Position numbers and translations under genes: made by a program. The notes below the pieces were generated by a model. The model was given only the letters and a program-made list of their open reading frames with translations, had not been told where the DNA came from and made no database searches. From Candidatus Marsarchaeota archaeon (GTDB lineage: Archaea; Micrarchaeota; Micrarchaeia; Micrarchaeales; Micrarchaeaceae), in contig JAMCZQ010000006.1 in NCBI GenBank assembly GCA_023485295.1, positions 118,502 through 182,501 of the forward strand: a stretch of DNA of 64,000 nucleotides, written 5' to 3'. Positions 24,939 to 60,147 of the stretch are shown here, piece by piece. The stretch's first letter is position 1, and each line of letters begins with the position of its first letter.

Positions 24939-24970
24939 GGATACAGCACAATAAATAGAAAGTGAGCGTT

Positions 24971-26140
24971 TTGACACTGCAAATATTATTCAATAAAAAA
25001 TCAAGGCGCATTTACGCAACTGACCAGTCGACAATAGACACAGTAAGGACTGGCGGCATAGGGGAATTAAGCAGCGGCATGCTAGAACTGATGCCTGAAG
25101 AGGGCCTTTACCTGATGGATGTGAGAAAAGCCGAATGCAAGGATTCGGAATCTGGCGAAGGCATCTCTTTCAACGGATTGGCCTCGGTATTTGTGAAAAA
25201 TAAGAAATTTATGGCGCGGTATTTTACCTACAAGGACTGGCGTGACAGAGGGTTGATGATTACAGATCCGCACCGCGCCAACAAGCCCCAAAAAGATGGC
25301 ATGCAGGCTAAAAAATATCCCTATTCAAAAATCTCGCTTTCCAGCTATTCTATGCGGGGCATATTCTTCCCTGAAGACCTCACTACAATAATTGATGACA
25401 AGGACGCAGGGAAGGAAATATACGAAAAATACTGGTTCGGGCAATATGGCACCTATAAGCTAAGCGATCATGGGATCCTGAATAAGCTGGATGTCTACGA
25501 AACCACATACTTGATGGAAAGCAATGCGCTTTCCGTGGAGGGTTACACAAAAAATGACATCATGCGCGCAGCAATGGCTGTAAGGAAAGACTCGCAAAAA
25601 CTTTATGATGTATACAAGGACTGGCGCTCTAAGGGGTATGTTGTCAAAACCGGCTTCAAGTTCGGGACGCATTTCAGGATATACTTTCCCGGCGCCCAGC
25701 CAATAAAAACCGATCAAAACTGGATACACTCAAAGCACGTACTGCATGTATTTCCACGCGACTCCAAACTGCTTACATCTGAATGGGCTAGAGCCATACG
25801 CGTTGCGCACTCTGTCAAGAAGACTTTCATACTTGCAATACCTGGCAAAAGCAGGAAAAAACGTCTTGACATAGATTTTGTGCTGTATGGCAGGAACCCA
25901 AACAACAACGTTGGCAAAGAAAGCCAATCGCCAAAATATGCGATGCTGTCCTTGAGTGAAAACGAGTATATAGGTGGCAATGAACTATCTGCAATAATCA
26001 ACGAGGCTAAAGAAAGGGCGCTGGAACTTGTTATAGCAATAGCCGACAGGGAAACTGCTGTTACATACTACAAGATAAAGCGCATAGATCTTCCAAAGAG
26101 CGAGTACGAATATTATGAGATAGACTGGATGCAGCCTTAA
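24971..26140 (+). CDS. endA: tRNA-splicing endonuclease, three-unit epsilon-2 type
   Basis: A 389-residue enzyme that excises introns at bulge-helix-bulge motifs. The catalytic triad by family pattern is Tyr238 (FRIY), His253 (WIHSKH) and Lys284 (HSVKK). An N-terminal unit (about 1-110) and a C-terminal unit (about 295-389) flank the catalytic unit, and a diverged YKDW motif near 87-90 repeats the catalytic unit's YKDWRSKGY. This three-unit layout is known from ARMAN archaea, where it cleaves non-canonical introns too. Start TTG 24971 lies nine bases after the GTG of GTGAG at 24962; that GTG is the alternative start. Confidence 0.92.
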   Translation: MTLQILFNKKSRRIYATDQSTIDTVRTGGIGELSSGMLELMPEEGLYLMDVRKAECKDSESGEGISFNGLASVFVKNKKFMARYFTYKDWRDRGLMITDPHRANKPQKDGMQAKKYPYSKISLSSYSMRGIFFPEDLTTIIDDKDAGKEIYEKYWFGQYGTYKLSDHGILNKLDVYETTYLMESNALSVEGYTKNDIMRAAMAVRKDSQKLYDVYKDWRSKGYVVKTGFKFGTHFRIYFPGAQPIKTDQNWIHSKHVLHVFPRDSKLLTSEWARAIRVAHSVKKTFILAIPGKSRKKRLDIDFVLYGRNPNNNVGKESQSPKYAMLSLSENEYIGGNELSAIINEAKERALELVIAIADRETAVTYYKIKRIDLPKSEYEYYEIDWMQP

Positions 26141-36575: not shown

Positions 36576-36714
36576 GGGGTTGTGGCGTAACTTGGCAGCG
36601 CAGCAGGCTCCAGATATTTAACTTGAAATGAGCCAATAGGCAATGATGATAATCTGGAAAGCAGATATGATATGAAGTAACCTGCTGGTCCGGGTCCAAA
36701 TCCCGGCAACCCCA
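36576..36714 (+). tRNA. tRNA-Trp (CCA) with a 66-nt intron
   Basis: The acceptor GGGGTTG (36576-36582) pairs with CAACCCC (36707-36713), discriminator A. D arm GCGT/GCGC with loop AACTTGGCA; T arm CCGGG, TCCAAAT, CCCGG. The anticodon stem GCAGG (36603-36607) pairs with CCTGC (36681-36685). Anticodon CCA is at 36610-36612. The intron 36614-36679 sits at the canonical 37/38 site and leaves a 73-nt tRNA. The intron holds ATGATGA (36643-36649), a perfect box C, and ATCTGGA (36651-36657), complementary to the anticodon-loop TCCAGAT. The bulge-helix-bulge is imperfect (CTCC against GAAG with one mismatch). Confidence 0.92.
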
Positions 36715-60037: not shown

Positions 60038-60147
60038 GCAGGGGTTGCAGAGTCTGGTCTGGTTTTGGTATAAAGCCACAGAAAAATGCGCAGGACTTAA
60101 GATCCTGTGGCCTAGCGCCTTCGTGAGTTCAAATCTCACCCCCTGCA
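60038..60147 (+). tRNA. tRNA-Leu (TAA) with a 26-nt intron in the D loop
   Basis: The acceptor GCAGGGG (60038-60044) pairs with CCCCTGC (60140-60146), discriminator A. The anticodon stem CAGGA/TCCTG has anticodon TAA at 60098-60100. A long variable arm (GGC/GCC) and the T arm GTGAG, TTCAAAT, CTCAC identify Leu. The D loop is interrupted. TCTG (60053-60056) pairs with CAGA (60079-60082), with 5' bulge GTC (60057-60059), inner helix TGGTTTT/AAAGCCA, loop GGTAT, and 3' bulge AAA (60083-60085). Cutting after the second base of each bulge excises 60059-60084 and leaves an 84-nt tRNA with a normal 3-bp D stem (GCA/TGC). Confidence 0.93.

Follow-up and report, generated by a model that had tools for sequence, protein, structure and literature searches.

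The gene for tRNA-Leu(UAA) at positions 60038 to 60147 (plus strand) of the window, the 64,000-nt stretch of DNA analysed here, has a short insert, folded as a hairpin, within its D-loop. This insert is very probably an intron: the organism's own epsilon2-type tRNA-splicing endonuclease is predicted to excise it and the ligase RtcB likely to reseal the precursor, giving an ordinary leucine tRNA. Noncanonical tRNA introns, including those at position 20/21, and this type of enzyme have already been published, and the Leu(UAA) intron is of that known kind. The insert, its covarying helices, its near-universal presence in the order, its absences and the genes for both enzymes are all features of the sequence.

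The window corresponds to C6:118502-182501 of the host genome (G000), an assembly of 885 kb in 8 contigs with a completeness of 95.7%. Both sequence and fold place the parts of the gene: the acceptor stem (60038-60044/60140-60146), the D-stem (GCA 60047-60049 paired with TGC 60087-60089), the anticodon TAA (60098-60100) and A73 (60147), with no encoded CCA. Apart from the D-loop insert the gene is intact, and the sequence and coordinates given for this interrupted gene by an earlier note on the same DNA hold. A genome-wide scan with the tRNA family, together with the tRNAs read from it, detected no second Leu(UAA) gene in the 95.7%-complete assembly, the case that the earlier note had named as telling against its own reading; no other tRNA read from this genome has the anticodon TAA, and the anticodon-arm sequence occurs in it exactly once. 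With a completeness of 95.7% one could still suppose that the copy described here is a pseudogene and that an intact Leu(UAA) gene lies within the missing 4% of the genome, but the acceptor, anticodon and T arms are all fully paired in the minimum free energy (MFE) fold, and the interrupted form recurs in 128 of the 129 resolved genomes of the order, so that we consider this explanation extremely improbable. It should be noted that D-loop-interrupted tRNA genes are missed or truncated by common tools: ARAGORN missed the gene at 60038-60147, a scan of the window with Rfam at the gathering threshold did not include it among its matches, and the genome-wide tRNA family scan recovered the locus only as a partial match of 22.4 bits.

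The MFE fold of the precursor is a cloverleaf with one additional hairpin. The whole precursor folds at -44 kcal/mol (z -3.88), with none of 200 shuffles equally stable, and the D-arm folded alone has a z of -2.38, with 4 of 200 shuffles equally stable. The earlier note had described a TCTG/CAGA central helix, and this helix is present in the MFE fold at 60053-60056/60079-60082. Depending on the register of splicing, its 5' strand would comprise 53-56 (26-nt register) or 54-57 (24-nt register) within 60053-60057, and its 3' strand 79-82 or 78-81, respectively, within 60078-60082 (here and below, pairs are numbered by the final two digits of the window position). A 5' bulge within 60057-60060 (GTC 60057-60059, or 60058-60060) would contain the 5' splice site, and a run of A residues at 60082-60086, lying within an internal loop, would contain the 3' splice site. 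Between them stands the inner hairpin of the intron (60060-60078), which has 8 pairs in the MFE fold where 7 had been described, and of which pairs 61-77, 62-76 and 63-75 are kept or covary in relatives.

The motif had also been called a textbook bulge-helix-bulge with two 3-nt bulges, which overstates it in both the MFE fold and the D-arm fold. The 5' bulge GTC is there, but the 3' side is one strand of a 3x4 internal loop, with GAG facing AAAA ahead of the closure of the D-stem. By the strict definition, a 4-bp helix between two 3-nt bulges, only the 5' one of the two bulges is found; by the relaxed one, a single bulge with a retained central helix, both elements are present, with three central pairs in all 95 distinct precursors. 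The motif is thus closer to the relaxed form in the literature (PMC6379350) than to the strict one. Removal of the intron yields an ordinary cloverleaf tRNA by either of the two candidate cuts discussed below. A chance hairpin is ruled out by conservation at the same site in 128 genomes.

This conservation, in 128 of the order's 129 resolved genomes (131 genes), is far above chance, the counts being of genes and genomes that are related and not of independent events. A search pattern, GGRCTTAAGAYCC, has matches in 127 of the order's 148 genomes, our own included. Reading the D-arm in a first set gave 106 intron-bearing genes in 103 genomes, spanning 46 genera, and one intronless gene (L201, in G008); the remaining genomes with the pattern contributed the intron in 22 more. 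In three of the 21 genomes with no pattern match (G108, G011 and G015) there is an intron-bearing gene whose anticodon stem is altered; L368-L370, which differ in that stem, were missed by the 128-gene pattern and were read by eye. The 19 genomes outside the 129 are G101 and the other 18 of these 21, and second pattern matches in G120, G045 and G101 are not in the counts. A search for CTTAAGA in the 21 genomes proved too loose for use, and L172, L235, L236, L237, L299, L300, L312, L403 and L412 were set aside as chance pattern matches that are not tRNA genes.

Outside the order the pattern matched in 23 of 99 genomes; 18 loci were read, 3 of them chance matches, and 5 matches were left out. 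None of the 15 Leu(UAA) genes thus read from other orders of the class has a D-loop intron. The intron-free allele is represented by these 15 outgroup genes and, within the order, by L201 as the only intronless Leu(UAA) gene; L201 is mismatched (A.C) at one pair of its anticodon stem and may reflect a real loss, a decaying or imperfect copy, or an assembly error. The simplest history that we can infer is a single gain at the order's base, followed by at least one later loss. The earlier note had regarded D-loop introns as rare, a description that fits neither the listing of position 20/21 as an archaeal intron site in the part of the literature available (PMC4090602) nor the almost universal presence of the intron in this order.

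The length of the insert ranges from 16 to 31 nt across the order (in the 24-nt register), and the hairpin loop is freely variable in both length and sequence. The helices of the insert covary. Pairs 54-81, 55-80 and 56-79 hold in every one of 95 distinct precursors, with 55-80 being TA in 58, TG in 31 and CG in 6; these figures come from parsing patterns that fixed the helix letters G56, G57, C79 and G81, which all 106 of the first genes passed. In the inner helix, pair 61-77 is invariant, and for both 62-76 and 63-75 there is a single precursor with the pair lost and there are others with double changes. Of the flanking pairs, 53-82 is broken in 21 of the 95 and 60-78 in 10.

Where exactly the insert would be cut can be weighed by comparison. 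The earlier note placed the ends at 60059-60084, giving a 26-nt intron (exons GGT|AATGC), an 11-nt D-loop, GAGTCTGGTAA, and an 84-nt tRNA; each of these ends is probably displaced by one base, and a 24-nt intron at 60060-60083 (exons GGTC|AAATGC, product 86 nt) fits the comparative data better. We prefer the latter because only these ends leave a D-loop length found in intronless leucine tRNAs. Among 28 distinct, parser-accepted intronless leucine tRNAs from G000, its relatives and the outgroups, the stretch from GG to the D-stem measures 5 nt in 24 tRNAs and 4 nt in the other 4; L201, L309, L313 and L315, which lie outside those 28, read by eye as TCAAA, AAAA, TCAAA and TCAAA. In the 24-nt register the stretch left after GG in 128 genes would be TCAAA (59), TTAAA (31), AAAA (20), TCAAT (14) or, more rarely, TCAAC (2) or TTAAC (2). 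TCAAA is also the stretch of the sole intronless relative, L201, and the spliced product GGAAAA of the AA type equals outgroup Leu(UAA) alleles. The notion that the spliced D-loop always copies the other leucine tRNAs of the same genome fails for the AA type, in whose genomes the leucine paralogues have GGTCAAA or GGCCAAA and not GGAAAA.

The 26-nt cut is distinctly the less probable choice, yet it has points in its favour. It has the four Watson-Crick pairs TCTG/CAGA of the MFE fold, with T53-A82 in 97 and T60-A78 in 115 of the 128 genes (under the 24-nt register G57 would stand opposite A78 in 127 of them), and the homologous register is the one used by the Ser(GCU) intron described below, whose helix ends at G18. 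Against it, the stretch after GG would shrink to 3 or 2 nt in each of the 128 genes, and none of the 28 intronless leucine tRNAs has such a length; the pairs on which it draws, 53-82 and 60-78, are broken in some of the distinct precursors, as noted above; and in the Gln(CUG) intron it is the other register that is used. More generally, intron ends placed from the helix alone can err by one base, and comparison with intronless alleles can correct them.

The same genome has D-loop introns in two other tRNA genes, tRNA-Ser(GCU) (L238, G000:C6:21152-21253, minus strand) and tRNA-Gln(CUG) (L268, G000:C2:108375-108466, minus strand). For Ser(GCU), 21 loci have the intron and 24 do not (45 parsed of 46, our own included), and for Gln(CUG) the figures are 11 and 11 (22 parsed of 30, our own included), these tallies covering those 46 and 30 loci, a subset of all matches. 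Cutting two bases into each 3-nt bulge converts L238 (Ser) into L260 and L270 (Gln) into L277, and since these cuts reproduce intronless alleles exactly, the cutting rule works in the D-loops of this group. G18 is the end of the helix in Ser(GCU) and G19 in Gln(CUG), which provides a precedent for both Leu registers. In the MFE fold of the Ser(GCU) precursor the AGAG/CTCT helix is kept; that of the Gln(CUG) precursor does not show the motif. The contrast between the Leu(UAA) intron, present in 128 of 129 genomes, and the patchy Ser and Gln introns is large, again among related and non-independent genomes.

At D-stem pair 12-23 (the equivalents of 60049/60087), 45 of 128 intron-bearing Leu(UAA) genes have A.C, as do members of 17 of the 46 genera among the first 106 genes, against one of 30 parsed intronless leucine tRNAs. 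Either C-to-U editing or a tolerated A.C pair may explain it.

These observations bear on whether the insert might instead be retained, leaving a mature tRNA with a long, extended D-arm. The enrichment of A12.C23 in intron-bearing genes could mean a relaxed D-stem and so lend this reading some weight. However, G18 and G19, whose usual contact is with the T-loop, would then be tied up in or beside a helix, the inserts that Ser and Gln have at this place are missing exactly from relatives, one relative has a Leu(UAA) gene with no insert (L201), and the hairpin loop is free to vary in length and in sequence. We therefore judge retention very unlikely.

Several other tRNA genes of this genome also have unusual forms. 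Six have inserts in the T-loop (L039, L041, L043, L044, L045 and L047), with anticodons, by eye, of Leu(CAA), Ala(GGC), Cys(GCA), Arg(CCT), Arg(TCT) and Arg(TCG). The tRNA-Trp(CCA) gene at 36576-36714, which ARAGORN misses, has a long anticodon-loop insert containing ATGATGA, which resembles a C box, and the tRNA-Gly(CCC) gene at 2039-2133 has an insert past the anticodon. A degenerate proline tRNA copy lies about 2.3 kb from an intact one (the two loci being L046, G000:C5:50496-50569, and L049, C5:52825-52897, both on the minus strand) and is possibly the trace of an integrated element.

Excision of the Leu(UAA) intron is predicted to fall to an enzyme encoded in the same window. The ORF at 24962-26140 (plus strand, 392 aa), which the earlier note had picked out as an endonuclease gene at 24971, is confirmed as an epsilon2-type tRNA-splicing endonuclease: it matches both Pfam tRNA endonuclease domains (PF01974 and PF02778), and its residues 5-392 align end to end with residues 2-387 of ARMAN-2 EndA (PDB 4fz2, 568 bits). 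The marks of the epsilon2 type, a single chain of about 390 aa with a catalytic Tyr, His and Lys and a loop Lys, are all there, with Y241, H256, K287 and the loop lysine K166 conserved; the ARMAN-2 counterparts, as given in the part of the source available, are Y236, H251, K282 and K161 (PMC6379350). By analogy with the ARMAN-2 enzyme, this one would have relaxed substrate specificity. An RtcB ligase gene is found at G000:C2:31417-32721 (E 3.9e-165). We propose that precursor RNA would be transcribed with the hairpin insert in its D-loop, that the epsilon2-type endonuclease would cut the insert out, and that RtcB would likely rejoin the exons to give ordinary tRNA-Leu(UAA); transcription, cleavage, ligation and the exact ends are all inferred. 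Across the class, 140 of 147 genomes contain a match to the endonuclease, in other orders as well, and many of these matches cover nearly its whole length. Of its relatives, the 80 loci kept have record titles naming Micrarchaeota, Marsarchaeota, Micrarchaeum, Mancarchaeum or Micrarchaeaceae. The relaxed endonuclease is not enough to explain where the intron occurs, since homologues exist in other orders, yet none of the 15 Leu(UAA) genes read there has the intron.

The closest points of comparison are the noncanonical archaeal tRNA introns at 20/21 and other sites, the ARMAN genomes, and Caldiarchaeum subterraneum, which belongs to another phylum. In the parts of these sources available, 20/21 is among the noncanonical archaeal tRNA intron positions (PMC4090602), and a survey of 217 archaeal genomes with 10,372 tRNA genes counts 673 noncanonical introns (PMC8450103). 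The intron described here shares with published 20/21 introns a short D-loop insert, a bulged helix and a presumed endonuclease substrate, and relaxed motifs (hBH, HBh') are known among them (PMC4090602, PMC6379350). It differs in being nearly fixed across an order and in that its preferred junction would lie one residue further (20a/20b). As far as the available text goes, the ARMAN epsilon2 enzyme cleaves non-canonical introns (PMC4033280, PMC6379350) and has been described with RNA (PMC12397907); the enzyme type in ARMAN-1 and ARMAN-2 is the same as here, and ARMAN genomes are listed with multiple-intron tRNAs (PMC4033280, PMC6379350, PMC12397907). Caldiarchaeum subterraneum likewise has an intron-bearing tRNA-Leu(UAA), and D-arm introns in its genome, but its Leu(UAA) gene has multiple introns whose placement in the D-arm is not stated in the part of the source available (PMC3293823). 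Among titles and abstracts, a coverage that is without the primary ARMAN paper, we found none on an order-wide Leu(UAA) D-loop intron, and we make no claim that it is unreported.

Why the Leu(UAA) intron should be so firmly held is a matter for conjecture. One suggestion, which we regard as speculative and rather unlikely, is that it has become a required step in tRNA maturation across the order, for example by masking G18 and G19 until folding or D-arm modification is done. This would explain why the Leu intron is retained in 128 of 129 resolved genomes while the Ser and Gln introns come and go, and why A12.C23 is tolerated almost only in intron-bearing genes. Whatever its cause, the order offers a natural series for asking why archaeal tRNA introns persist, with one near-fixed intron showing one apparent loss and two others present in about half of the parsed relatives, and the occurrence of the Leu(UAA) intron at the same place in nearly every resolved genome makes it well suited to testing why introns of this sort likely persist.
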